This document shows, piece after piece, positions 828-12,060 of a stretch of 13,816 nt of DNA. The notes under the pieces are model-generated. The model saw nothing but the letters and a program-made list of their open reading frames with translations, made no database searches and had not been told where the DNA came from. Within the stretch, counting starts at the first letter, position 1. The number at the start of each line of letters is the position of its first letter. The DNA is taken from assembly GCA_001304015.1 (NCBI GenBank), contig LJUY01000065.1, forward strand, positions 1 through 13,816, given 5' to 3'. Position numbers and translations under genes: made by a program. Origin of the DNA: a candidate division Zixibacteria bacterium SM23_81 (GTDB taxonomy: Bacteria > SM23-81).

Positions 828-926
828 CTCTAACAAGCAAATTCAGTTGACGGCTGTTTAAAGTGTTTCTATTTGACTTAAAACCAGTACATCCTCCCGC
901 CGCAACTGATATGATGGCCGTTAGGG
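828..926 (+). repeat. attC-like integron recombination site 1
   Basis: The outer arms are CTCTAAC (828-834) and GTTAGGG (920-926). Each matches the integron core consensus RYYYAAC or GTTRRRY at six of seven positions, and the arms pair with each other with one G-T wobble. Inside, TCAGTTG-A-CGGC (843-854) pairs with GCCGCAACTGA (899-909) over 11 bp with a single extrahelical A at 850, the asymmetry that sets strand choice in attC sites. The terminal loop is about 44 nt. The spacers between outer and inner arms (8 and 10 nt) are longer than the usual 5-6, so this is the less canonical of the two sites. Confidence 0.6.
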
Positions 927-2000
927 TTCTCTGAGAACACAAAGACTAGAGAAACTGAAAATGTATGATCAACAATGTGTTAAGTTTCTGCGATGGTCTT
1001 TGCCCCAGCTGAACTATAAATGGCAAGGTTTTCGGAAGGTTCGCAGACAAGTATGTAGACGTTTGAAGCGAAGATTAGAAGAACTAAGTATTTCTAACAT
1101 ATCGGGATACAAGGATTATCTATCAAAAGACCAGAAGGAATGGGTAATCCTTGATTCGCTATTGTATATCAGCATTTCTCGATTCTATCGGGACCGTGAG
1201 ATTTTTGACTTGCTGAAGAACGAAATATTGCTCTTGCTGGCACAAAGGGCGTTAGAGGAAGACAGAGAAGTGAGATGTTGGAGCGCGGGTTGTTGCTCAG
1301 GGGAAGAAGCCTATTCATTGCAAATTATGTGGATTCAGGCAATCTTACCGCGATTGAAATCACAATTGCGCTTACACGTGATCGCGTCAGACAAAACCTC
1401 TTCTCTGCTGGAACGTGCCAAGAAGGGGATATATCCAGAAGGGAGTGTTAGAGATTTGCCACAGGAGTTCATACAGGCAGCATTCTTGAAGACTGACAAT
1501 GGTTATGAGATAAAGAACTATCTTAAGACGGATATTGAGTTTATAGAACAAGATATTCGTCATCAATGTCCAGAGGGAATATTTGATCTGATTCTCTGTC
1601 GCAACTTGGCATTTACATACTTCGAGGAAGATCTGCAAAGAGCAATTATAGGAGAAGTTATTGAAAAGTTGGAACCCAATGGATTCTTTATTGTGGGATC
1701 CCAAGAATCGATTCCAAGTGGTATACCGCATCTTAGTCCATATTGGAAAAGAAGTATTTACCGAAAGATAGAGTAGGAAAGCTGTAATTAGCAGAAAGGT
1801 ATCAGAGTTTGTGTAAACAGTGCTTAATCAATGGTAATGCATGAATGTCTCGGGGTATATCGTTTTTGCTGCAATCAACAACAGTGCCTGACAAGTCGCC
1901 TAACCCGAAGAAACCGCATTTCCCTTCGTGATAACGCTTGAATATCAGAGCACGTTTTCCTGAGTACCTCCTGTTAGGATTGTCTGGGTGGTTCCACGGG
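921..2000 (+). mobile_element. Putative integron gene cassette carrying a CheR-like methyltransferase
   Basis: The predicted cassette runs from the crossover in G^TTAGGG (site 1) to the crossover in G^TTAGCT (site 2), 1080 bp. It holds one gene in the cassette-typical orientation, starting 40 bp after the left crossover and followed by an attC-like site. An internal test fits: when a cassette circularises, its first six bases complete its own attC. Here G plus TTAGGG gives GTTAGG, the exact complement of CCTAAC in this cassette's left arm, whereas the linear neighbour (GTTAGC) pairs less well. No integrase or attI is in the window, so this may belong to a cluster of attC sites lacking an integrase. 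Confidence 0.55.
961..1776 (+). CDS. Orphan CheR-type S-adenosylmethionine-dependent methyltransferase
   Basis: The product is 271 residues, close to the usual CheR length. The N-terminal helical domain has the basic run KVRRQVCRRLKRRLEEL. It is followed by ISRFYRDREIF (counterpart of the CheR T-x-FFRD-x-x-x-F motif), the SAM-binding loop CWSAGCCSGEEAYSLQ, IASDKTSSLLERAKKGIYP with its acidic ribose-contacting residue, and DLILCRNLAFTYF. All catalytic-domain motifs are present, so the fold and SAM binding are secure. Classical CheR methylates glutamates on chemoreceptors; here no chemotaxis gene is near and no CheB or receptor is present, so the substrate is unknown. Stand-alone proteins with the CRNLAFTYF signature form their own subgroup of the family. 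Base composition is richer in A+T than the genes to the right. The ribosome-binding site before the ATG is weak. Two attC-like sites flank the gene, suggesting delivery as an integron cassette. Confidence 0.85.
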   Translation: MYDQQCVKFLRWSLPQLNYKWQGFRKVRRQVCRRLKRRLEELSISNISGYKDYLSKDQKEWVILDSLLYISISRFYRDREIFDLLKNEILLLLAQRALEEDREVRCWSAGCCSGEEAYSLQIMWIQAILPRLKSQLRLHVIASDKTSSLLERAKKGIYPEGSVRDLPQEFIQAAFLKTDNGYEIKNYLKTDIEFIEQDIRHQCPEGIFDLILCRNLAFTYFEEDLQRAIIGEVIEKLEPNGFFIVGSQESIPSGIPHLSPYWKRSIYRKIE

Positions 2001-2006
2001 TTAGCT
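1898..2006 (+). repeat. attC-like integron recombination site 2 (near-canonical geometry)
   Basis: Outer arms: GCCTAAC (1898-1904, perfect RYYYAAC) and GTTAGCT (2000-2006, six of seven to GTTRRRY). Then 5-nt spacers on both sides (1905-1909 and 1995-1999). Inner arms: GAAACCGC (1910-1917, 8 nt) and GTGGTTC (1988-1994, 7 nt), which pair with one extrahelical A (1913) and one G-T wobble. The central loop is 70 nt. The 7-5-8 / 7-5-7 layout with one bulged base on the left inner arm is the standard attC architecture. Part of each spacer (CCG/CGG) could also pair, giving an uninterrupted 8-bp outer stem CTAACCCG/CGGGTTAG. Confidence 0.65.
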
Positions 2007-2083
2007 CCAGAACGTTATGTGGCTTTTGACAGCATGGAGTATCTGCAAACCGTATCGTCAATATGCAGGTATAACTCAAAGAA

Positions 2084-2090
2084 AAGGAGG
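2084..2090 (+). promoter_or_regulatory. Strong Shine-Dalgarno deciding the lyase start
   Basis: AAGGAGG lies six bases before ATG 2097 and fixes the start there instead of at the upstream in-frame ATG 1938, which has no such site. Confidence 0.85.
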
Positions 2091-2096
2091 AAAAAA

Positions 2097-3542
2097 ATGA
2101 ACGTAAGGCTATCTACAGGGAAAGAAATACCCATGGAAATGCACAAAGTAAGGATTGTGCAGAAAACCAGTTTAGTGCCGGTTGAAGAAAGGCTCAGGGC
2201 TATAGAAGAAGGTGGCTACAACACTTTTTCACTCAAAACCAAAGACATATTTATTGATATGTTAACCGACAGCGGAACAAATGCCATGAGCGACAATCAA
2301 CTGGCAGCGATGATGGTTTCCGATGATGCATATGCTGGCAGCGAAAGCTTCTACAAATTAGCCCAAGCGATAGAAGATGTCTTAGGCTTCAAGTATGTTT
2401 TGCCCACGCACCAGGGAAGGGCGGCTGAGCATCTTATAGCCAAGGTTTTCATCAAGCCAGGTGACATCATCCCCATGAACTATCATTTTACCACCACGAA
2501 AGCACACATTGAGCTTATTGGCGGACAGGTTCTGGAAATTTTCGCGGATGAAGCTCTCAATACGCAGAGCAAGCATCCCTTCAAGGGGAATTTAGATATC
2601 CAAAAGCTGAAGGATACTATCAAAAAGTATGGGGTGGATAAGATACCGTTTGTAAGGATGGAGGCAACTACAAATCTGCTCGGCGGTCAACCATTTTCGA
2701 TGGAAAATTTGAAAGAGGTGAAACGGATCTGTTCACAGCATAAGATTCCATTGGTGCTCGATGGAAGTCTGATCGCTGAGAATGCCTACTTCATAAAGCT
2801 TAGAGAAAAAGGATACCAAAATAAAACCATCAAAGCGATCATCAAGGAGATTATGGGCTTTGCTGATCTGTTCTACCTAAGCGGCAGGAAAAGCAGTTGT
2901 GTAAGAGGAGGATTTATCGCTACGAACAAGAAAGTCTTTTATGAGCAGATAAAACCCTGGCTTCCGGTTTACGAAGGTTTCCTCACATATGGCGGGATGT
3001 CCAGCAAGGAGATTGAGGCTATGGCTGTGGGGATTAGGGAGATGACGGACATCAATGTGGCTGGCAGTGCTGCGGAACAGGTGAAATATTTTGCCGAAAG
3101 GCTCATCGAAAGAAAAATTCCAGTAGTCACTCCGTCGGGTGGACTGGCTTGTCACGTCGATGCCATGATGTTCTTACCCCATGTTCCCCAATCCGAATAT
3201 CCAGCCGGGGCTCTGGCTGCAGCCATTTACATAGCCTCTGGGGTGAGGAGCATGGAAAGAGGCACCATTTCCATGGACCGAGATGAAGAGGGGAATGAGG
3301 TGTTTTCAGATTTGGAATTAGCTCGGCTTGCAGTTCCAAGAAGGGTTTATACTATAGCTCACTTCGAATATGTGGCTGACAGGATACATTGGCTACACCG
3401 ACACCGGGATTTGGTGAAAGGATTAAGATTTGTTGAGGAACCACCCGTGCTTAGATTCTTCTTTGGAAAGTTAGAGCCTATAGATAATTGGGGATCAAAG
3501 TTGGGTGAAGTCTTCAAAAAGGAAGTTGGCGCTCACTGGTAG
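2097..3542 (+). CDS. Tyrosine phenol-lyase / tryptophanase family beta-eliminating lyase
   Basis: This 481-residue PLP enzyme would cleave an aromatic amino acid to pyruvate, ammonia and the free aromatic (phenol from tyrosine or indole from tryptophan). It matches the family along its length: YNTF near the N terminus, LTDSGTNAMSD, DDAYAGSESFY (the catalytic-site tyrosine), PTHQGRAAEH, FTTTKAH, NLLGGQP, the PLP aspartate at about D222, the PLP lysine at K265 in SGRKSS, PVYEGF, and GVRSMERG. LRFFFGKL near the C terminus has Phe where tryptophanases have His, and RRVYTIAHFEYVADRI also resembles tyrosine phenol-lyase, so that substrate is favoured. Oddity: the Arg that follows the PLP aspartate in characterised enzymes (Arg217 in Citrobacter TPL) is Leu225 here. 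The start was chosen for AAGGAGG at 2084-2090, six bases upstream; the frame stays open to 1938 but that extension overlaps the attC-like site and lacks family similarity. Confidence 0.88.
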   Translation: MNVRLSTGKEIPMEMHKVRIVQKTSLVPVEERLRAIEEGGYNTFSLKTKDIFIDMLTDSGTNAMSDNQLAAMMVSDDAYAGSESFYKLAQAIEDVLGFKYVLPTHQGRAAEHLIAKVFIKPGDIIPMNYHFTTTKAHIELIGGQVLEIFADEALNTQSKHPFKGNLDIQKLKDTIKKYGVDKIPFVRMEATTNLLGGQPFSMENLKEVKRICSQHKIPLVLDGSLIAENAYFIKLREKGYQNKTIKAIIKEIMGFADLFYLSGRKSSCVRGGFIATNKKVFYEQIKPWLPVYEGFLTYGGMSSKEIEAMAVGIREMTDINVAGSAAEQVKYFAERLIERKIPVVTPSGGLACHVDAMMFLPHVPQSEYPAGALAAAIYIASGVRSMERGTISMDRDEEGNEVFSDLELARLAVPRRVYTIAHFEYVADRIHWLHRHRDLVKGLRFVEEPPVLRFFFGKLEPIDNWGSKLGEVFKKEVGAHW

Positions 3543-3927
3543 AATGGCTTCGACTTGAGTTTGACATTGAAGGACAGGACCTCGGAATAGAAACGCAGGT
3601 TAATCATGCCTGGTCAAGCTACACGTTCATTGAACCAAAAACAAGGTCTATTCTCCTGGCAGAGACCAGCACGTTGGTGAGACAAATTCATGACCGAGGG
3701 AGGAAAGAACAGGGGTTGAAATCGCCAAGCCGTCTTTAAAGAATCTGCGAATGCATATTGAGGATAATCCACAGACATTCTTAAGTTTCTTTAGAGTTTA
3801 TTTCGAAACAAATTCGTGACAAATCTGCGGCCGCAATTTATATCTAGCTTGGTACTAAATAGTAACTCCAACAGATCATGGGCTTATTAAGACGCCGTTC
3901 CCTTAGTTAACACTCCACCCATAGCAA
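3543..3927. other. Spacer after the lyase gene, no gene seen
   Basis: About 385 bp between the lyase stop and the terminator of the convergent por operon. I see no convincing ORF, tRNA, third attC-like site or plus-strand terminator. It is A+T-rich, like the region to its left. Confidence 0.6.
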
Positions 3928-3955
3928 AATAGCCCGACCTCCTGGCCGGGCTATT
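3926..3955 (-). terminator. Rho-independent terminator of the porGDAB operon
   Basis: Perfect 9-bp arms AATAGCCCG (3928-3936) and CGGGCTATT (3947-3955) with a 10-nt loop. On the minus strand the stem runs into a T-rich stretch (ATTTTG). It lies just beyond the porB stop. Confidence 0.85.
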
Positions 3956-3981
3956 GTTCTCATCTCAATTGTACCTCTCTC

Positions 3982-4902
3982 CTATTTTTTCTTCTTCTTC
4001 CCCTTCTTTTCCTCAGTTTCTTCACACCCCTCTGCCATCTTCAGCAACCTTTCCCACTCCCAGTCCACGGTCCGCTGAATCTGTTTGATGTCCGCCTCAG
4101 TGAGATGGCGGAATCTGCCCTGAAGTTTTACATACTCCGTTACCGGCTTGGGCTTGGCCGGCTTGACGTTGATCTTGTAGTCCACGCCATTGAATATCTC
4201 ATACAGCGGGAAGACCTTGGTCTGTACAGCCAACCTGGCCAGCTTGACGCAGGTCTCTGGGGCGCTGCGCCATCCGGTGGGACAAGGAGCGAAAACGTGG
4301 ATGAACTTACAGCCCTGGGTATCCTTGGCCTTTTTGACCTTCTTGACCATATCCTCGGGATAGGCCACGGAGCAGGTGGCCACGTAGGGGATCCGATGAG
4401 CGGCCATGATGCCCACCATGTCCTTCTTGGGCGTTTCCTTGGGATGGTTCTCAGGCGTTGTGGTGGTCCAAGACAGTCGGGGGGTGGCCGAGCTGCGCTG
4501 AATGCCGGTGTTCATATAGGCCTCGTTGTCATAACAGATGTACATGATGTTATCGTTGCGCTCCGCCGCCCCGGAGAGGGCTTGAATCCCGATGTCGAAG
4601 GTGCCCCCATCACCAGCCCAGGCCACCACCTGGGTGTCCTTATCGCCCATCATCTCCAAGCCGGCCTCCATCCCCGAGGCCGCCGATGCGGCGGTCTCAA
4701 AGGCGGTGTGAAAGATGGGCACCTTGAGGGATGAGTAGGGAAAGGGACCATCGATCACCGACCAACAGCAGGCCGGGATGGAGAGGACCGTGTTTTGGCC
4801 CAGCGCCTTCAGGGCATAACGCATGGCCAGAGTGGCACCGCAGCCCTGACAGGCCAGATGGCCAGATTGCATCAGCTCCTGTTCCGGAATGGTTAGTTTC
4901 AT
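3982..4902 (-). CDS. porB: Pyruvate:ferredoxin oxidoreductase, beta subunit
   Basis: This 306-residue subunit binds thiamine diphosphate and the proximal [4Fe-4S] cluster of the cytoplasmic enzyme that converts pyruvate and CoA to acetyl-CoA, CO2 and reduced ferredoxin. The Fe-S ligands are visible as C18 and C21 (HLACQGCGA), C45 or C46 (ACCWS) and C207 (FAPCPTGW). The Mg-ThDP motif is AGDGGTFDIG (D98) with N126 and NTG at 131-133 in YDNEAYMNTGIQRSSATP, a near-invariant PorB signature. It overlaps the end of porA by four bases (ATGA, 4899-4902), implying translational coupling. The C terminus is an unusual acidic then lysine-rich tail (EETEEKKGKKKKK) of no known function. Related VOR/OGOR enzymes share the fold, but the motifs favour pyruvate. 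Confidence 0.95.
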   Translation of the reverse strand: MKLTIPEQELMQSGHLACQGCGATLAMRYALKALGQNTVLSIPACCWSVIDGPFPYSSLKVPIFHTAFETAASAASGMEAGLEMMGDKDTQVVAWAGDGGTFDIGIQALSGAAERNDNIMYICYDNEAYMNTGIQRSSATPRLSWTTTTPENHPKETPKKDMVGIMAAHRIPYVATCSVAYPEDMVKKVKKAKDTQGCKFIHVFAPCPTGWRSAPETCVKLARLAVQTKVFPLYEIFNGVDYKINVKPAKPKPVTEYVKLQGRFRHLTEADIKQIQRTVDWEWERLLKMAEGCEETEEKKGKKKKK

Positions 4903-6059
4903 GGCTTCAATCCTATCCAGATGATATCTTCTTCGGATCTATCTCTTTTCCCAGCGTCCTCGATAATCTCCGCGATGGTCTCTGGAGTCACATCTCTCCC
5001 CCCGAGCCCGGCGATATAGCCGAAAATCGGCGGCCGCCGGGGCTGGTTGTACATGGCTGCCTTCACTTCCTGGTAGAATATTCCGGAGTGTCCAAAGGAG
5101 ATATTGCGGTCGATAACCATCACCCGGTGGGCATTCTCGATGGCTTTTCGGATCTCCTGGAAGGGAAAAGGTCGAAAGACCCGCACTCTCACCAGACCGA
5201 TCTTTTCCCCCTTTGCCCGCAGCTCATCGACGACCGTCCGAGCCGTGCCCGCGACGGTGGCTGAGGCCACCAGGATGGTCTCGGCATCCTCGATCTGGTG
5301 GGTCTCGATGAGGCCATACTTACGGCCAAACAGCTTATCGAACTCCTCGTCGGCCTCCTTGATTAATCCCTCGGCCTCCCGCATGGATCGCTCAATCTTG
5401 TAACGCAGCTCATAATATCGGTCAGGACCAGTTAGATTGCCGAAGCTGTGGGGGTCTTTGGGATCGACTCGATAGGTGGCTTTGCGACGCGGCAGATACT
5501 TATCCACCAGCTCCTGGTCGGGCATATCCACCACTTCCGAGGTGTGGGAGAGCACGAAGGCATCCAGCACGATCATCGCCGGCAGAAGAACCCTCTCGTT
5601 CTCCGAAACCTTGAAGGCCTGAATCACCGTGTCCAGGACCTCCTGGTTCGACTCACAGTAGTATTGAATGAGACCGGTATCCCGTTGGGACAACGAATCG
5701 TTCTGATCGGTCCAGATGGTCCATGGAGGACCCATAGCCCTATTGATATTGCCCAAGACCACCGGCGTTCTGGCTCCCACTGCCCAGTGGAGCATCTCGT
5801 GCATGAGCGCCAGGCCTTGCGCCGAAGTGGCAGTGAACGTGCGCGCGCCTACTGCTGAAGCCCCGATGGATGCGGCCATGGCGGAATGCTCAGACTCTAC
5901 CTTGATAAACTTGGCATCCAGAAGCTTATCCGCACAGAGCTCTGAGAGGAAGCCCACCACCTCCGTCTGGGGCGTAATGGGATAAGCGGCTATTACCTGA
6001 GCCCGGGCCAGCATGGCTCCGTACGACAGGGCGTGATTGCCCATGACCACCTTTTTCAC
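4899..6059 (-). CDS. porA: Pyruvate:ferredoxin oxidoreductase, alpha subunit
   Basis: This 386-residue subunit supplies the domain contacting the ThDP pyrimidine and the CoA/pyruvate side of the active site. It begins KKVVMGNHALSYGAMLARA and contains AAYPITPQTEVV (about 24-35), KVESEHSAMAASIGASAVGAR, TATSAQGLALMHEMLHW and GPPWTIWTDQNDSLSQRDTG, all hallmark PorA segments; the C-terminal half ends in an FGHSGIFYQEV region. The start is a GTG (6057-6059) directly after the porD stop, with AAGGAGG inside the end of porD; a downstream ATG (M6) is the alternative but would remove conserved residues. The porD-porA junction has no gap, and the porA-porB junction overlaps by four bases, so the subunits are made from one message in fixed order. 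Confidence 0.95.
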   Translation of the reverse strand: MKKVVMGNHALSYGAMLARAQVIAAYPITPQTEVVGFLSELCADKLLDAKFIKVESEHSAMAASIGASAVGARTFTATSAQGLALMHEMLHWAVGARTPVVLGNINRAMGPPWTIWTDQNDSLSQRDTGLIQYYCESNQEVLDTVIQAFKVSENERVLLPAMIVLDAFVLSHTSEVVDMPDQELVDKYLPRRKATYRVDPKDPHSFGNLTGPDRYYELRYKIERSMREAEGLIKEADEEFDKLFGRKYGLIETHQIEDAETILVASATVAGTARTVVDELRAKGEKIGLVRVRVFRPFPFQEIRKAIENAHRVMVIDRNISFGHSGIFYQEVKAAMYNQPRRPPIFGYIAGLGGRDVTPETIAEIIEDAGKRDRSEEDIIWIGLKP

Positions 6060-6341
6060 TCACTCCTCCTTGACCACAGAAATGGCGTCCCTGGGGCACT
6101 CCTCAGCGCAGATGAGGCAGCCCTTGCAATAATCATAGTCGATGACTGGCTCTTCGTCCCTGATGAGGATGCAGGCATCCGGACAGAACTTCCAGCATAT
6201 CATACAGCGAGTGCATTTCTCATAATCTATAACCGGTCGCAGGTTGCGCCATGATCCGGTCTTGTTCCAATCCATCAAGCCCAAGGACATGGCCATGGCC
6301 GGCATGTCTTTCTCGCCTTTGATGTCAATTTTCTCAGTCAT
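6060..6341 (-). CDS. porD: Pyruvate:ferredoxin oxidoreductase, delta (ferredoxin) subunit
   Basis: A 93-residue 2[4Fe-4S] ferredoxin-type subunit that passes electrons from PorB towards external ferredoxin. The two clusters are ligated by C43-C46-C49 (CTRCMIC) with C53, and by C72-C75-C78 (CKGCLIC) with C82. The roughly 35-residue N-terminal extension (LGLMDWNKTGSWRNLRPVID) matches the PorD type that docks on the alpha/gamma subunits. GAGGA seven bases upstream supports the ATG. The stop abuts the porA GTG. A 132-bp repeat-bearing spacer separates it from porG, the only large gap in the operon. Confidence 0.94.
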   Translation of the reverse strand: MTEKIDIKGEKDMPAMAMSLGLMDWNKTGSWRNLRPVIDYEKCTRCMICWKFCPDACILIRDEEPVIDYDYCKGCLICAEECPRDAISVVKEE

Positions 6342-6400
6342 TTTTTATCCTCGAGGTGTTTCAAAGTGCATTTTGTAATCTAATAACCCGTTAATCGGTT

Positions 6401-6473
6401 ATCGTTGATCGTTGATCGTTGATCGCAAATGACAAAACCTAGGTTGTATTCTTGACGATTACCGATCAACGAT
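6401..6473. repeat. 7-bp tandem repeat with downstream inverted copy between porG and porD
   Basis: ATCGTTG is repeated three times and a partial fourth (6401-6425). CGATCAACGAT (6463-6473), directly abutting the porG stop, is the perfect 11-bp reverse complement of ATCGTTGATCG, which occurs in overlapping registers within the array. The transcript could form alternative hairpins between the porG stop and porD. No T-run follows, so it is not an obvious terminator. Confidence 0.85.
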
Positions 6474-7016
6474 TTACGCTTTTTCAAACGCTTCTTTCGC
6501 GGCCTGGACGTTTTCCTCTTTCTTGATGGGCGATTCCTCACGCACAGCCTCCAGAAGCGCCTTCAGACCAACAAAACCGGTGATTTTTGAGAAAGCGGCC
6601 AGCATGGGCATGTTGACGATGGGCGCCGCCTTGGAGCCCAAACCGTATTTAACCGCAACAGAGGTGGCATCGAAGGTTCTCACTCGGAACTTATCCGGCA
6701 CTTCGAAGAAGCTGGGATCTTTGCCGGAATTGATGATCACCCAACCGCCGGATTTGAGGCCCGCGGTCACATCGATCACCTCCATGAGGGTGGGGTCCAT
6801 AACCACCACATGGTCCGGCTGGTAGATCTTGCAGCGCAGATAGATCCGCTTGTCGTCGATGCGGGTAAAGGAGACCACCGGTGCACCTCTCCGCTCCACG
6901 CCGTATTCGGGGAAGGTCTGGACCCATTTTCCTTCTATCATTAAAGCATCAGCCAGTGCCTTGGATGCGACCACCGTTCCCTGTCCGCCCCGTCCGTGAA
7001 ATCGAATCTCGATCAT
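6474..7016 (-). CDS. porG: Pyruvate:ferredoxin oxidoreductase, gamma subunit
   Basis: A 180-residue gamma subunit of the four-subunit enzyme, the CoA-side/assembly domain that is fused into one chain in dimeric bacterial POR. Signature segments are MIEIRFHGRGGQGTVVASK at the N terminus, TFPEYGVERRGAPVVSFTRI (about 39-58), and GLGSKAAPIVNMPMLAAFSKI near the C terminus. It is the first gene of the operon, beginning about 40 nt after the predicted transcription start. The Shine-Dalgarno is weak (GTGAG). The gene order G-D-A-B is the one typical of archaea and of anaerobic bacteria with the four-subunit enzyme. Confidence 0.94.
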   Translation of the reverse strand: MIEIRFHGRGGQGTVVASKALADALMIEGKWVQTFPEYGVERRGAPVVSFTRIDDKRIYLRCKIYQPDHVVVMDPTLMEVIDVTAGLKSGGWVIINSGKDPSFFEVPDKFRVRTFDATSVAVKYGLGSKAAPIVNMPMLAAFSKITGFVGLKALLEAVREESPIKKEENVQAAKEAFEKA

Positions 7017-7063
7017 ATCAACTCACTTTCGCTGCACCTGAAAGAAACCTGTGTCCATTTTTT

Positions 7064-7092
7064 AATATAGGTGAGGAGGCCAACAGACACAA
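7064..7092 (-). promoter_or_regulatory. Sigma-70-like promoter of porGDAB
   Basis: On the minus strand: TTGTGT (7087-7092), 17-bp spacer, TATATT (7064-7069), followed by AAAAA. Transcription would start near 7057, about 40 nt before porG. The element nearly repeats upstream of the second operon (10350-10378). Confidence 0.65.
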
Positions 7093-7100
7093 GCAGAAAA

Positions 7101-7116
7101 TGTGAAATTTTTCACC
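7101..7116. promoter_or_regulatory. CRP/FNR-superfamily-type operator
   Basis: TGTGAAATTTTTCACC fits the TGTGA-N6-TCACA consensus at nine of ten half-site positions. Its core GTGAAA-TT-TTTCAC is a perfect palindrome. The centre is roughly 50 bp upstream of the predicted start, adjoining the -35 box, a position where an activator of this family would act. Which regulator binds (CRP, FNR-like or HcpR-like) cannot be told. Confidence 0.5.
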
Positions 7117-7194
7117 TGTGAGCGTGGGTTCGGAAAAGGATGAACAAGTATACGTCCTTAAAGCTATAATCAATTGTTCGATCAAAGGGGCTGA

Positions 7195-7226
7195 GGGTTC
7201 GGGGGCTTGAGGTGTCAAGCGAACCC
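7195..7226. repeat. Bulged hairpin in the por intergenic region
   Basis: GGGTTCG (7195-7201) pairs with CGAACCC (7220-7226). After a four-G bulge, CTTGA (7206-7210) pairs with TCAAG (7215-7219) around a GGTG loop. Twelve perfect base pairs in 32 bases, with no T-run on either side, argue against a terminator. It is unexplained. Confidence 0.6.
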
Positions 7227-7298
7227 GCGCCGCCCATAAGAACGTGTTATCTTTAGCCAAGCGGAGAACGCCAAATAGGCTGCCTGCTGGCCTGAAAG

Positions 7299-7338
7299 CT
7301 GAGATTCTTCGACCACTATAGCGGCCTCAGAATGACAA
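7299..7338. repeat. Short dispersed-repeat-like element
   Basis: CTGAGATTCTTCG and CCTCAGAATGACA flank a 14-bp middle, with CTGAG/CTCAG inverted arms. The phrase GATTCTTCG...CTCAGAATGACA resembles an intergenic palindromic repeat I recall from several unrelated anaerobe genomes. Only one copy lies in this window. Confidence 0.4.
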
Positions 7339-7455
7339 TACAGTGTTTCCTTGGGGAGGCGAGCTAGTCATTAAGCATCAATTTGCAATGAGCTCTTGAG
7401 CAGATTTAGTATGGTTGCGAACTCGATTTCCGATCCCCGGTCCCCGATCCACGAT

Positions 7456-7480
7456 AAAAAAACCCGGCTCAAGAGCCGAG
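7456..7480 (-). terminator. Rho-independent terminator of the second por-like operon
   Basis: On the minus strand CTCGGCTC (7473-7480) pairs with GAGCCGGG (7463-7470) through one G-T wobble and runs directly into seven Ts (7456-7462). It lies 27 bp past the stop of the PorB paralogue. Confidence 0.88.
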
Positions 7481-7506
7481 TCTCTCCTTTGCAGCGAAAT
7501 TCCCTT

Positions 7507-8355
7507 CTACCCTTCAACCCTCCTCAACAAGCGCTCCAAGTCTTCCTCCACTCGTTGTTGGATAACCCCGATTTGTTTCTTGGTCAGGCGGTGGAAACGC
7601 CTCTGAGGCCGAAAGTATTCTTCCACCGGAAGCCTTTTGGGGAGGACATTGATGGTGTATTTCTTCCCTTTCTGCACCTCGTAGAGGGAAAAGATTCCTG
7701 TGTGGACGGCCAGCCTGGCCGTCTGAACGGAGAGATTTTCGGGGATCTTCCAGACCAGCGGACAGGGCGCGAAAAGGTGGAGCAGCCGCGTCCCCTTGAT
7801 TCTTTTAGCTTTTTTAAATTTGCCAATGAAATCCTCGGGGTAGGCCACTGTGGCCGTGGCCGCATAGGGTATCCGAAGTGCAGCGAGGATATCCACCAAG
7901 CTTGCTCGAGCCTCTATCTTGACGCCTTTAGGCTTTATGATGGTCTCGTTTTCAAAGCTGACGTAGATGATGTTCTCGCTCCGCTCCGCAGCCTTACTCA
8001 GGTTCTGAAGCCCGATTTTGAAAGTCTCCTCAATTCCAGCCCACACCACCACCGTCCCGTCCGTTTTGTCCTCAAAGTTCATGGCCCTCCGGACTTCTGA
8101 GACAGGGGAAGCAGCCGTCTTGCAAGCGGTACGAACAACCGGCACATGGGAAAAGGAGTCTGGCAATGGATTATCCCTATCGTAGCAATACCTCTCTGAG
8201 CTCACCAGAGATGTCTTCTTTCCAAGGGCTTTCAAAGCATAGCGCAGGGATAGTGCGATGCCGCAGCCCGGACAGGCTGAATGCCCCGAGTCCACAATCT
8301 CCCTCTTGGGGATCTGAAAGTTTTGTACCTTCGTCTTAGGAATGAAGGTTCTCAT
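7507..8355 (-). CDS. Degenerate PorB paralogue lacking the thiamine-diphosphate motif
   Basis: About 282 residues from the chosen ATG (8355). Homology to PorB runs end to end: SGHSACPGCGIALSLRYALKALGKKT, ERSENIIYVSFENE, LRIPYAATATVAYPEDFI, HLFAPCPLVWKIPENL and AVHTGIFSLYE. The four Fe-S cysteines are kept (SACPGCG, the Cys in RYCYDRD, and FAPCP). The Mg-ThDP site is not: AGDGGTF of PorB is AGIEETF here, losing the Asp and the Gly-Gly, and the NTGIQRSSATP loop is deleted or rewritten (ETIIKPKGVK). The active-site FHTAFE is VRTACK. It is therefore probably not a pyruvate-decarboxylating subunit, yet the frame has stayed intact. The start is chosen for GGTGA five bases upstream and a TGATG junction with an upstream frame; the frame is open to an ATG at 8412 without a ribosome-binding site. 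Confidence 0.85.
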   Translation of the reverse strand: MRTFIPKTKVQNFQIPKREIVDSGHSACPGCGIALSLRYALKALGKKTSLVSSERYCYDRDNPLPDSFSHVPVVRTACKTAASPVSEVRRAMNFEDKTDGTVVVWAGIEETFKIGLQNLSKAAERSENIIYVSFENETIIKPKGVKIEARASLVDILAALRIPYAATATVAYPEDFIGKFKKAKRIKGTRLLHLFAPCPLVWKIPENLSVQTARLAVHTGIFSLYEVQKGKKYTINVLPKRLPVEEYFRPQRRFHRLTKKQIGVIQQRVEEDLERLLRRVEG

Positions 8356-8359
8356 CACT

Positions 8360-8533
8360 TCACCAGTTCCAGCTTCTCTCCCTCTCCGGTCCGCCATGTT
8401 TCGTAACGCCATCGAAGATCTGGCATAAGTTGTCCAGCGCGAAACGGCACCCTCTTCTACCGGCTATAACCTGAGCCCAGAAACGCAGGGTTCGCCATGA
8501 GACGGCCTTCTCTCCGGCAACTGCCTTCTTCAT
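8360..8533 (-). pseudogene. Fossil of a second porA (N-terminal stub)
   Basis: The ATG at 8533 overlaps the stop of the flavoprotein gene (ATGA, 8530-8533), the same coupling seen between porA and porB in the first operon. Its first 24 codons (MKKAVAGEKAVSW, then RTLRFWAQVIA) align without gaps to the first 24 of the intact PorA, with 12 identical residues by hand count. After AQVIA the similarity ends: PorA continues AAYPITPQT, whereas the frame runs about 30 codons of unrelated, Arg-rich residues to a stop at 8360. Another frame, ending at the TGATG junction with the PorB paralogue, may hold the old C-terminal tail (DLRWRYETW...), but that is weak. A large internal deletion of a full porA is the simplest reading. 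A short coupled peptide could still be translated. Confidence 0.65.
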
Positions 8534-10254
8534 CTCAGCACCTCCCGCATAGACATGGCGTTCCGGGGACACTCCTGAACGCAGATGCCGCAACCTGTGC
8601 AGTGCTCATAGTCGATTTTATAGCCGAACTTCCCACGACGACTGGAGATGGCAATATCGGGGCAGAAGATCATGCAGTTCTCACACATGTTGCAGACGCC
8701 ACAGCTAATACACCTTTGAGCCTCCGCCACAGCCTCTTCCTCCTTGTAACCCACGCAGACCTCTTGAAAACCTTTAGTCCGGGTCTCCACAGGACGAACA
8801 CGAAGGGGCACCTGGGCCTCCTCCTCTAAATAGGCCAGGTTCAAGTCTTTACACCGTACCAAGGAGGGATCTACCTCTTTAGGGCGAATGCGTGCCGTTC
8901 CCGGCCGTTCCTGAATGGAGAAGAAATCCTCCCCTTTCATATAACGGTCGATGGCCAAGGCTGCCCTCTTGCCAGAGCCGATGGCATGGGCCACCGTGCC
9001 CGCTCCTGTGGCCACGTCTCCACCAGCGAAGACCCCCTCTTTGCTTGTGAAACACCCCCTGTCCACCAGGATACCCCGGGCCTCGGTCTCGATATCTTCG
9101 GGCAGAAAGGAGAGATCCGGAAGCTCTCCCATGGCCAATACAATCCCATCTACTTTAAGCAGAAAGTTACATCCTTTTATGTGAACCGGTCGACCATGAC
9201 CACTCTTATTCTTCTTGCTCGGCTTCACCCTGACCAACTCCATGCCCTTCACTCGCCCACCCTGAACGAGGATCCTCTCAGGATAAACCTGAGGAATGAT
9301 CTCGATGCCTTCCTCCAGAACACTCGCGATTTCCCCACCAATGGCCGGCATCTGAGCTTGAGGGTGCCGGCAGACGATGATCGGTCGGCATCCCCGGCGA
9401 AGAAGAGATCTGGCGACATGAACAGATGCATTCCCGCCCCCGATGATGGCAACCCTCTCCCCGATCCTGATATTCTCCCCCAGGTTGAGTCGTTTCAAAA
9501 GCTCCACGCTGGAGAAAACACCCTTTGCCTCCTCCCCGGGAATCCCTAGCTTTTCGCTTTGGTGAAAGCCCGTGGCGACGAACAGGGCCTCAAAGCTCCT
9601 CAATTGATCCAGAGTGATGTCCCGGCCAACCACGGTGTTCGTCCTGATCTCAACCCCCTGAGCTTTGATATCGGCGATTTCCTGATTAAGAACGGCCCGG
9701 GGAAGCTTGTATCTGGGGATACCAGCCCGCATCATCCCGCCAGCCTTGGGCAGGGCTTCGAAGACGGTGACTCCATATTTCATCCGGGCTAACTGATAAG
9801 CACAGGAAAGCCCAGCAGGCCCCGAACCCACAATAGCTACCTGTTTCGTCCTTTGAGGTCTGGCTTTTGGCCTAGGACGAGGAAGAGTCCGGCCATAATC
9901 CGCCAGAAACCTTTCCAGAGCGTGAATGGAGATGGCCCCACCCAACTCCGCGCGGTTGCACTCGTCCTCACAGGGATGGGGGCATACCCTTCCACAGACA
10001 CCGGGGAAGGGATTCTCCTGTCGAATCAGCTCCCAGGCCTCCCGCAATCGCCCCTGGCTGGCCAGGTAGATGTACTCTACAATATCCTCGCCGGCGGGAC
10101 ATGCCTCATTACAGGGCGCGGTTTTATCACAGTAATAGGGTTCTTGGTACTTAGAGGAGAGCATTTGCTTTGCGGCAGGGTCTCCGGGGACGCGGCCATG
10201 AAGGGATATCCATTTTTCGCTGCGTAACTCAATCCTGTCTACTTTTTTGGCCAT
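8530..10254 (-). CDS. GltD-type NAD(P)/FAD oxidoreductase fused to a PorD-like ferredoxin
   Basis: A 574-residue flavoprotein likely moving electrons between NAD(P)H and ferredoxin or a partner oxidoreductase in the cytoplasm. In order: an N-terminal Fe-S helical domain with C42, C48, C52 (PCNEACPAG) and C87, C91, C95, C99 (CGRVCPHPCEDEC); an FAD Rossmann motif VGSGPAGLSCA at 142-152; an NAD(P) motif IGGGNASVHVARSLL at 271-285; the second FAD signature GVFAGGDVATGAGTVAHAIGSG at about 407-428; and, from about 510, a 2[4Fe-4S] ferredoxin with CISCGVCNMCENCMIFCP (515-532) and CTGCGICVQECP (552-563). The extra Cys pair in the first cluster motif is notable. The layout resembles glutamate synthase small chain, but no glutamate synthase large subunit is near; the partners are a porA fossil and a PorB paralogue. 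The C-terminal domain takes the place of PorD. First gene of its operon; no good Shine-Dalgarno is visible. Confidence 0.9.
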   Translation of the reverse strand: MAKKVDRIELRSEKWISLHGRVPGDPAAKQMLSSKYQEPYYCDKTAPCNEACPAGEDIVEYIYLASQGRLREAWELIRQENPFPGVCGRVCPHPCEDECNRAELGGAISIHALERFLADYGRTLPRPRPKARPQRTKQVAIVGSGPAGLSCAYQLARMKYGVTVFEALPKAGGMMRAGIPRYKLPRAVLNQEIADIKAQGVEIRTNTVVGRDITLDQLRSFEALFVATGFHQSEKLGIPGEEAKGVFSSVELLKRLNLGENIRIGERVAIIGGGNASVHVARSLLRRGCRPIIVCRHPQAQMPAIGGEIASVLEEGIEIIPQVYPERILVQGGRVKGMELVRVKPSKKNKSGHGRPVHIKGCNFLLKVDGIVLAMGELPDLSFLPEDIETEARGILVDRGCFTSKEGVFAGGDVATGAGTVAHAIGSGKRAALAIDRYMKGEDFFSIQERPGTARIRPKEVDPSLVRCKDLNLAYLEEEAQVPLRVRPVETRTKGFQEVCVGYKEEEAVAEAQRCISCGVCNMCENCMIFCPDIAISSRRGKFGYKIDYEHCTGCGICVQECPRNAMSMREVLR

Positions 10255-10349
10255 GGAGACGCCCGATTAGCTCCTTCCTCTCACAAATCTCGTGAGCTCC
10301 AATCTTGTGGTCCTTATCAGCGCTGGTGAACTCGCTATTGCTCCTTTTT

Positions 10350-10378
10350 AATATAGCAACGCAGGCTGAAAATCACAA
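10350..10378 (-). promoter_or_regulatory. Sigma-70-like promoter of the flavoprotein/PorB-paralogue operon
   Basis: On the minus strand: TTGTGA (10373-10378), 17-bp spacer, TATATT (10350-10355), followed by AAAAA. It has the same architecture as the porGDAB promoter, and the 17 bases ending in the shared TTGTG match there at 14 positions. The leader would be about 90 nt. Confidence 0.6.
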
Positions 10379-10431
10379 GGACAAAAAGTGAGTCTTTGGG
10401 CTTTCCGACGCCGTAGATACCCTTTTCTCAT

Positions 10432-10454
10432 AAAAAAGGCGCCTTGAACGCGCC
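10432..10454 (-). terminator. Rho-independent terminator, probably for the MATE gene
   Basis: On the minus strand GGCGC (10450-10454) pairs with GCGCC (10438-10442) around a 7-nt loop, followed by six Ts (10432-10437). It lies about 240 bp beyond the MATE stop and upstream of the next promoter. Confidence 0.7.
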
Positions 10455-10650
10455 GATGATGGTCGAGATTCGTGTTGCTTGCGGGATTCGGGGACTGAGA
10501 CTCGGGGCACCACCACACTAAAGAAACATCATTGAAAATTGCAAATTAAAATTTGCCTCTCCTCGCCCCCTTCCAAAAAGCATTACATGGCACAATTGCT
10601 TTCGGTGAGACGCGACATGTCGCTTCTCTACCTCTCTGTGAACACGAATA

Positions 10651-10694
10651 CCGATTCACGGTTCCCGGTCTCCGGTTTCCGATCACCGGTTTTT
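10651..10694. repeat. Degenerate CCGGT/CCGAT repeat cluster
   Basis: CCGGT occurs three times at 10665, 10672 and 10686, interleaved with CCGATT and TTCCGATC. CCGGT (10672-10676) and ACCGG (10685-10689) can form a hairpin followed by TTTTT on the plus strand, but no plus-strand gene precedes it. Similar CGATTTCCGATCCCCGG sequence occurs at 7424-7440. Confidence 0.6.
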
Positions 10695-10695
10695 C

Positions 10696-12060
10696 TCAAA
10701 TCACCTTCTGCTTCCAGGTCCCGCGGCCAAACCAGATCAAACCGATCATGGAGATGATCACGTTGGAGACGAACATACCCCACCAGATGCCCAGATGCCC
10801 CCACCGCAAGATGAAGGCCAGCACGTAGGCAATAGGGATACGCAACAACCACAACCGTCCGATGGACAGATACATCACAGGAGAGGTCTTCCCTGCCCCC
10901 TGAAAGGCGGCGAAGATCACCATGATGATGCCAAAGAAAAAGACCGAGTAGGAGACTACGCGAAACAGAATAACCCCCTGAGATACCACCTGGGGATCGT
11001 TGATGAATAGCCTAATCACCGGCTGGCTATAAAAAACCAGCAAACTGCAGCCCACGGCCAGGAAAGCCGCCACCATGCCCACCGCCCACCAGATAGTCCG
11101 CTCGGCTCTTCTAACCTGATCCGCCCCCAGGTTCTGGCCAATCAGGGCTGTGGCTCCAGCGCTAAAACCCATAGCGGGCACGTTCAAAAAGTGGATGATC
11201 CGCACAGCCACGGTGAAGGCGCTGACCACCACCGACCCGAAGGAGTTGACGAAGCCCTGAGTGACCATAAATCCCAGAGAGGCTCCCGACTGGCCCACGC
11301 CGGCCGGCATGCCGATGCGCAGGATTCTGTGCAGATAGTGTTGCCTTGGTCGCATATGGGGCCAGCGGACCTTCAGTCCGCGGGCGCCAGAGACCAGCAG
11401 GATCACACAGGCCGTCGAGGCCAAGATGCGGGAGGTCACCGTCACCGTAGCCGCCCCGGCCACCTCCATCCGGGGGAAGGGCCCCCAGCCGAAGATAAGG
11501 ACGGGATCCAGGATGATGTTCAGCAGATTGGCCCCCAGGTCGATGATCATTGGCGTGATGGCATCGCCGGCACCGCGCATGATGCCGCCGTAAATGAAAG
11601 AGATAGCCATGAAGGGAATGCCTGTGAAGATAATTCTCAGGTAGGAGCGCGCATTCACGAACACATCTTCCGGGGTGTGCATAAACCGGAGGATGGGAGA
11701 CGATACCAGCACTCCCACAAGGGAGACGATGGTGGCTCCGATAAGTAAGAAAACAAATGTTTGACCAGCTGCCAAGTTGGCTTGTTCTCTCTGGCCGCTG
11801 CCGGTGTACTGGGCCACCAGAGTAGTGCCTGCTACGGAGAAGCCAGCACCGAAGGAGACGAAGAAAAAGAGGATCGGAAAGGAAATGCCCGGCGCCGAGA
11901 TCGCCTCTCGACCCAGCTTGCCCAGCCAGAAAGCATCGGCCATGCTGTATAGGGTTTGCAGCATGAAGGTGGCCATGACGGGCAGGGAAAGGCGCATCAG
12001 GGAGCCAGGAATGGAACCACTGAGCAGGGGGGGTTTATCCTCGTTCCGGTTTTCCAACAT
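10696..12060 (-). CDS. MATE-family multidrug/cation efflux transporter
   Basis: A 454-residue inner-membrane protein with about twelve hydrophobic segments in two homologous halves, the usual MATE length and topology. It would export cationic or amphipathic compounds in exchange for Na+ or H+. Family features are the start GSIPGSLMRLSLPVMATFML, the TM1-2 segment YSMADAFWLGKLG, GAGFSVAGTTLVAQYTGSG, the YGGIMRGAGDAITPMI loop and its second-half counterpart FAAFQGAGKTSPVMYLSIG, and VPAMGFSAGATALIGQNLGA. These place it in the NorM/DinF-like MATE group; substrate and coupling ion cannot be read from sequence. It is monocistronic by layout, with its own terminator. The ATG at 12060 has AAGGA about 12 bases upstream, a rather long spacing. 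Confidence 0.93.
   Translation of the reverse strand: MLENRNEDKPPLLSGSIPGSLMRLSLPVMATFMLQTLYSMADAFWLGKLGREAISAPGISFPILFFFVSFGAGFSVAGTTLVAQYTGSGQREQANLAAGQTFVFLLIGATIVSLVGVLVSSPILRFMHTPEDVFVNARSYLRIIFTGIPFMAISFIYGGIMRGAGDAITPMIIDLGANLLNIILDPVLIFGWGPFPRMEVAGAATVTVTSRILASTACVILLVSGARGLKVRWPHMRPRQHYLHRILRIGMPAGVGQSGASLGFMVTQGFVNSFGSVVVSAFTVAVRIIHFLNVPAMGFSAGATALIGQNLGADQVRRAERTIWWAVGMVAAFLAVGCSLLVFYSQPVIRLFINDPQVVSQGVILFRVVSYSVFFFGIIMVIFAAFQGAGKTSPVMYLSIGRLWLLRIPIAYVLAFILRWGHLGIWWGMFVSNVIISMIGLIWFGRGTWKQKVI

Follow-up and report, generated by a model that had tools for sequence, protein, structure and literature searches.

Organization of the contig

The stretch of DNA analysed here (the window) is the full 13,816 bp of contig C1, one of the 99 contigs of a 3.07-Mb draft genome. 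This host MAG is 92.6% complete, with an estimated contamination of 4%. The features along the contig, in window coordinates, are the following:

345-731, - strand: IS481-type transposase, N-terminal part, broken (PF13011, HTH_28)
828-926, + strand: attC1, crossover G920/T921; attC of a preceding, lost cassette
921-2014, + strand: probable gene cassette, 1,094 bp between crossovers, as delimited by attC1 and attC2
961-1776, + strand: cheR-like gene, 271 aa, CheR methyltransferase with SAM-binding domain
1886-2020, + strand: attC2, the cassette's own attC, crossover G2014/T2015, from covariance models and profile
1898-2006, + strand: 'site 2' of an earlier, sequence-only reading of this DNA; the inner L''/L' arms of attC2 mistaken for outer arms
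2097-3542, + strand: tryptophanase/tyrosine phenol-lyase-type gene (PF01212, NF009709), 76 bp past attC2
3982-12060, - strand: 2-oxoacid:ferredoxin oxidoreductase (por-type) cluster and MATE transporter, syntenic lineage core

The contig starts inside an IS481-type element that lies directly to the left of attC1, a proximity already noticed in the sequence-only reading. The transposase fragment, with a GC content of 0.60, matches NF033577 with 54 bits, under the cut-off of that model. At 471-571 the fragment contains a 50-bp sequence repeated in tandem without mismatch (2.0 copies, 100%), which may reflect either a genuine duplication that shifts the frame or an assembly error at the contig edge.

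At the opposite side, blocks between 4038 and 11136 are colinear with contig L124 of G001 (CSMAG_1598), a relative of the same family named Candidatus Zixiibacteriota, the main blocks showing a DNA identity of 72-80%. Because its right part is colinear with this contig, C1 belongs to the lineage. The similarity to G001 stops at 4038, at the por operon, and to the left of this position lie the tryptophanase-type gene, the proposed cassette and the IS481-type fragment. The cassette (927-1902) has a GC content of 0.41, whereas the conserved portion on the right reaches 0.55. The 4% contamination estimate and the reduced GC of the leftmost 4 kb are what one would expect if the contig were a binning error, a foreign integron piece placed in the draft genome, but the synteny of the right part with G001, together with the homology that attC1 shows to attCs on C26, a contig of 205 kb, makes such an error exceedingly improbable.

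Two attC sites and the cassette between them

A search of Rfam with the window gave no match, and we therefore built our own attC models. The training attCs lie beside annotated or HMM-identified integron integrases, and were taken from class 1 integrons on plasmids and from chromosomal arrays in genomes with an IntI over the TIGR02249 cut-off. The 13 training sites were registered at R'', the extrahelical A, L' and R', with loops and spacers trimmed or N-padded to equal length; we adopted this approximation because plain MAFFT alignment of the full-length attCs misregistered the right arms. Fifteen columns are invariant in this set: AAC (5-7), T15, A18, G22, A23, C24, G75, C76, T80, A82 and GTT (93-95). 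The covariance model R1 derives from the 13 training attCs and R2 from 45 R1 matches in integron loci, and neither includes any sequence of the present genome. A pair-and-base profile, separate from the covariance models, was trained on the same 13 sites.

The first site, attC1, is a canonical attC. Its outer arms, CTCTAAC/GTTAGGG, are complementary and follow the consensus RYYYAAC for R'' and GTTRRRY for R', with two end bases deviating, while the inner L''/L' stem, TCAGTTG[A]CGGC/GCCGCAACTGA, has 11 bp and one bulged A, the extrahelical base of the left arm. This is the anatomy that the sequence-only reading had described for site 1 (near-consensus outer arms, an 11-bp inner stem, one bulged A), and it is confirmed at 828-926. 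R1 matches this interval with 43.1 bits (E 1.1e-8) and R2 matches attC1 with 31.0 bits; by inspection, 15 of the 15 positions invariant in the 13 training attCs from other integrons are present. The heuristic score of attC1 is 14.7, and in 480 kb of Markov sequence used as background a score of 13 was attained four times and 14 never. DNA folding gave weak z-scores, -1.65 for site 1 and -1.17 for the stretch that had been read as site 2.

The second site is placed at 1886-2020 by the covariance models, with 20.5 bits and 21.2 bits (R2). Its register is GCCTGAC AAGTC GCCT AACCCG [A] ... CGGGTT AGC TCCAGAAC GTTATGT. The stem AACCCG[A]/CGGGTT carries its extrahelical base at the standard position and stands above background; R', GTTATGT, retains the GTT core, and R'', GCCTGAC, shows GAC instead of the usual AAC. 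Within the 320-bp intergenic stretch, where the attC of the cassette is expected, the best site of the profile is likewise 1886-2020, and over the whole window attC1 and attC2 are the only sites scoring 20 or more.

By itself attC2 is a moderate match (E about 0.6 for the whole genome), and the case for it draws on its position in addition to its score. Its score of only about 21 bits, its mutated R'' and its absence from the lists of two model searches (R1 with filters off, and R2 on its own genome) would all fit a reading in which only attC1 is true and site 2 no more than an imperfect palindrome, of chance or unrelated origin, beside an ordinary accessory gene. Against this, the profile score of 31.2 was reached by none of 600 shuffles, whose maximum was 16.3, and both the position of the bulged A (position 23, 15 nt from R'') and the length of the right spacer between L' and R' (11 nt) are the same in attC2 and attC1. 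We regard the single-attC reading as highly unlikely, and attC2 as a genuine attC. As a control, R2 was run on 845 kb from 76 por-cluster contigs of many phyla; it gave five matches up to E 10, the lowest with 26.1 bits, and because all five reach at least 26 bits the background at 21 bits is low. Four of these control matches are attCs on an Acidobacteria MAG contig (L155, 77-3634) and one is an attC on an Acetothermia MAG contig (L166, 3426-3483).

The sequence-only reading had thus found the right place for site 2 and mis-parsed its anatomy. The arms that it took for R'' and R', GCCTAAC at 1898-1904 and GGGTTAGCT near 2000, are L''/L': in the corrected frame its outer arms are the L'' (GCCTAACCCG) and L' (CGGGTTAGC) of attC2. 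As an attC on its own terms, the interval 1898-2006 has a heuristic score of 10.5, a chance level reached about once per 10 kb, and its spacer would be paired. The boundaries are accordingly corrected to a crossover at 2014/2015 and a site end at 2020. The central proposal of that reading, a cassette between two attC-like sites, is supported: both sites exceed every control, and the outcome that would have spoken against it, a covariance-model search with no match, did not occur, since our own models match both.

Since attC2 runs from 1886 to 2020, the cassette spans 921-2014. As had been proposed, a single gene lies between the sites, on the + strand and therefore in the orientation of the attCs, 40 bp past crossover 1, which is the layout of a gene cassette. 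Its product matches the CheR family (PF01739, E 8.6e-40), with SAM-binding, GEE and CRN motifs present, and reaches 88 bits with NF007902, under the cut-off of that model. It is the only CheR homologue detected in the host genome, and the MCP signalling domain PF00015 was found nowhere in that genome (92.6% complete), the same search being positive in 7 of 14 control genomes. Because the genome shows neither another CheR nor an MCP signalling domain, a role in chemotaxis is unlikely in this host, unless the receptors lie within the missing 7%. The product is most likely an orphan SAM-dependent CheR-fold methyltransferase with a substrate other than a host chemoreceptor.

The cheR gene has no match in the same-family genome G001, so that the nearest relative offers no example of this gene, flanked in the same way, as core sequence; this is consistent with mobility by IntI, and no proof of it. 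Searched against plasmids, the cassette DNA gave short matches at chance level only, and tblastn with CheR retrieved distant CheRs, the best (43%) on a Microvirga plasmid whose annotation shows no integron. A scan of genome contigs with CheR gave no match. The sequence-only reading had also argued for a former circle, from the way in which TTAGGG after crossover 1 completes site 2. The argument still holds in the corrected frame, where GTTAGG would pair at 6 of 6 positions (one T-G) with the CCTGAC of the attC2 R'' and the actual GTTATG at 5 of 6, but with a gain of one pair it is a weak hint of circularization.

The position of the tryptophanase-type gene raises the question of a second cassette. 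Its best match in three phylum relatives has E 2.4e-5 and 24% identity, and we place it in an accessory region. The gene begins 76 bp past attC2, has an intermediate GC of 0.45 and lacks a close homologue in the three relatives, and synteny resumes only at 4038, all of which would suit a cassette that has lost its attC, in a cluster once longer on the right. Yet neither R1 nor the profile detects an attC-like site at 3543-3981, no third attC accompanies the gene, with no other profile site of 20 or more in the window, and an insertion unrelated to integrons would look identical. A second cassette is a possible but doubtful reading. The sequence at 3543-3740, after this gene, looks like what is left of a disrupted coding sequence.

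Further attCs and integrase remnants in the genome

The search for further attCs and intI elsewhere, which the sequence-only reading had called for, yielded attCs on four contigs and two intI remnants. At least nine further attC-like sites were found in the host genome; this count is a lower bound, as the whole-genome model search scored 150 candidates and missed attC1 itself. The sites and remnants are:

C26, 68-167: attC-like site
C26, 131660-131757: attC-like site
C26, 132677-132776: attC-like site
C26, 135089-135186: attC-like site
C26, 1276-1368: attC-like site, by similarity
C26, 133800-133896: attC-like site, by similarity
C57, 1768-1843: attC-like site
C57, 3011-3057: attC-like site
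C28, 8763-8819, - strand: attC-like site
C49, 90163-90225: probable attC-like site
C26, 127051-127239 (L123 2049-2240): intI C-terminal remnant
C19, 30580-30726: intI C-terminal remnant

A stretch of 95 nt of attC1 aligns with C26:71-165 at 72.6% identity (E 4e-12). Homology, loops included, extends to all six C26 sites and to C57:1768, and with attC1 these eight sites have a mean column identity of 75%. In the genome parts examined attC2 shows a weak partial match only and falls outside this family, as would be expected if the cheR cassette had been imported with its own attC.

No intact intI is present on the contig, and none of the matches to TIGR02249 in the draft genome is above the cut-off. 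The statement that no integrase was in view thus stands for an intact gene, but the genome does hold the two remnants, which show 50-77% identity over 48-60 residues to IntI C-termini; longer XerC/D-like ORFs show 20-33%. At 92.6% completeness, an intact intI could be absent merely from the draft assembly.

Several of these sites are clustered. On C26, 128001-148000 (L245 3660-8042), four to five attCs, like the genes of this region, all lie on the - strand, and this array is about 4.4 kb from the intI remnant, which is downstream and on the same strand, an unusual arrangement. C57 (L119) carries at 1768-3057 the second two-attC cluster of the host genome, located between a nucleoside-gate transporter and purine genes, with a lipoprotein-like ORF of about 384 aa for which no Pfam match was found. 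On C28 (L120, 7025-8819), a gene for an alpha/beta-hydrolase lipoprotein is flanked on one side by the attC at 8763-8819 (-) and on the other by what may be a decayed attC, near 7025-7177 (-).

A probable CALIN in a little-studied phylum

By the usual rule, the attCs of a CALIN lie on the same strand within 4 kb. In the present case 828-926 and 1886-2020 are both on the + strand and less than 4 kb apart, and the cluster contains no integron-integrase gene, the remnants lying elsewhere in the draft genome; the combination of an intact intI, an adjacent attI and an array that defines a complete integron is not found. We therefore consider it very likely that 921-2014 is an integron gene cassette, that its two attCs form a CALIN left over from a chromosomal integron that has decayed, and that cheR was brought in on an attC of foreign type. 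IntegronFinder 2 assigns two or more attCs to the CALIN class, and it has been suggested that CALINs arise by degradation of integrons (PMC9024848).

As for its history, IntI, formerly encoded by the host (where remnants persist) or acting in trans, would have recombined the folded bottom strand of attC2, and the circular cheR cassette would thereby have been inserted after attC1. In such a scheme attC1 belongs to the host lineage's own attC family, attC2 is of a different sequence type, as expected of a cassette from elsewhere, and the integrase gene would have decayed later, the IS481-type element now being directly left of attC1. We infer both this recombination route and the order of events. 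A broader scenario, in which an entire small candidate phylum keeps its attC families while intI decays, so that cassettes can move only with integrases provided in trans, the present one bringing a non-chemotactic CheR-fold methyltransferase into a host devoid of chemoreceptors, is conceivable but on balance unlikely.

The attC, the cassette and the CALIN have all been described before, and the additions made here are the host lineage and the corrected boundaries. Like other CALINs (PMC9024848), this locus has at least two attCs that share one orientation and lie within 4 kb of each other on either side of a gene, and no intact intI close by; it differs in that the contig shows two sites only, that the cluster is interrupted by an IS and by the end of the contig, and that the host belongs to a little-studied small phylum. 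With the sedentary chromosomal integrons of the Vibrio/Xanthomonas type it shares single-gene cassettes and the presence of several homologous attCs per genome (the C26 array), although here the sites are spread over contigs, intI is reduced to C-terminal remnants and the arrays are short. Its attCs have the R''/R', extrahelical bases, L''/L' and spacer of class 1 integron attCs (aadA type, used in training), but there is no resistance gene and no IntI1, and the loops are longer than those of the 60-bp class 1 attCs. In a survey of archaeal MAGs, CALINs dominate and attCs are more alike within than between genomes (PMC9668308). The present case resembles those integrons in being known from a draft genome of an uncultured lineage, with mostly CALINs and within-genome likeness of attCs, and differs from them in that the host is bacterial and traces of intI are present (PMC9668308).

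A full-text literature search of incomplete coverage turned up no publication dealing specifically with integrons of this lineage. A small uncultured lineage, with a relative named Candidatus Zixiibacteriota, thus joins the known hosts of integron cassettes, its integrase apparently caught in decay. Because attCs are carried by 4 of the 4 phylum genomes examined, the best with 52.8 bits, integrons seem to be a trait of the lineage and not something imported by chance. The arms of 19 phylum sites show covariation, with 68 double-changed cells versus 23 expected and 0 of 500 shuffles attaining this number, in an alignment that was fitted to the model and is thereby biased towards the structure.

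Further observations were made in other genomes of the phylum. G003 has a longer C-terminal intI fragment (C1, L063, 30-437; 208.8 bits), on a contig that carries the ribosomal protein genes uL13/uS9/uS2. Finally, two other same-phylum genomes (L224, L225, L226, L228) contain multi-attC clusters, with up to three sites per contig.
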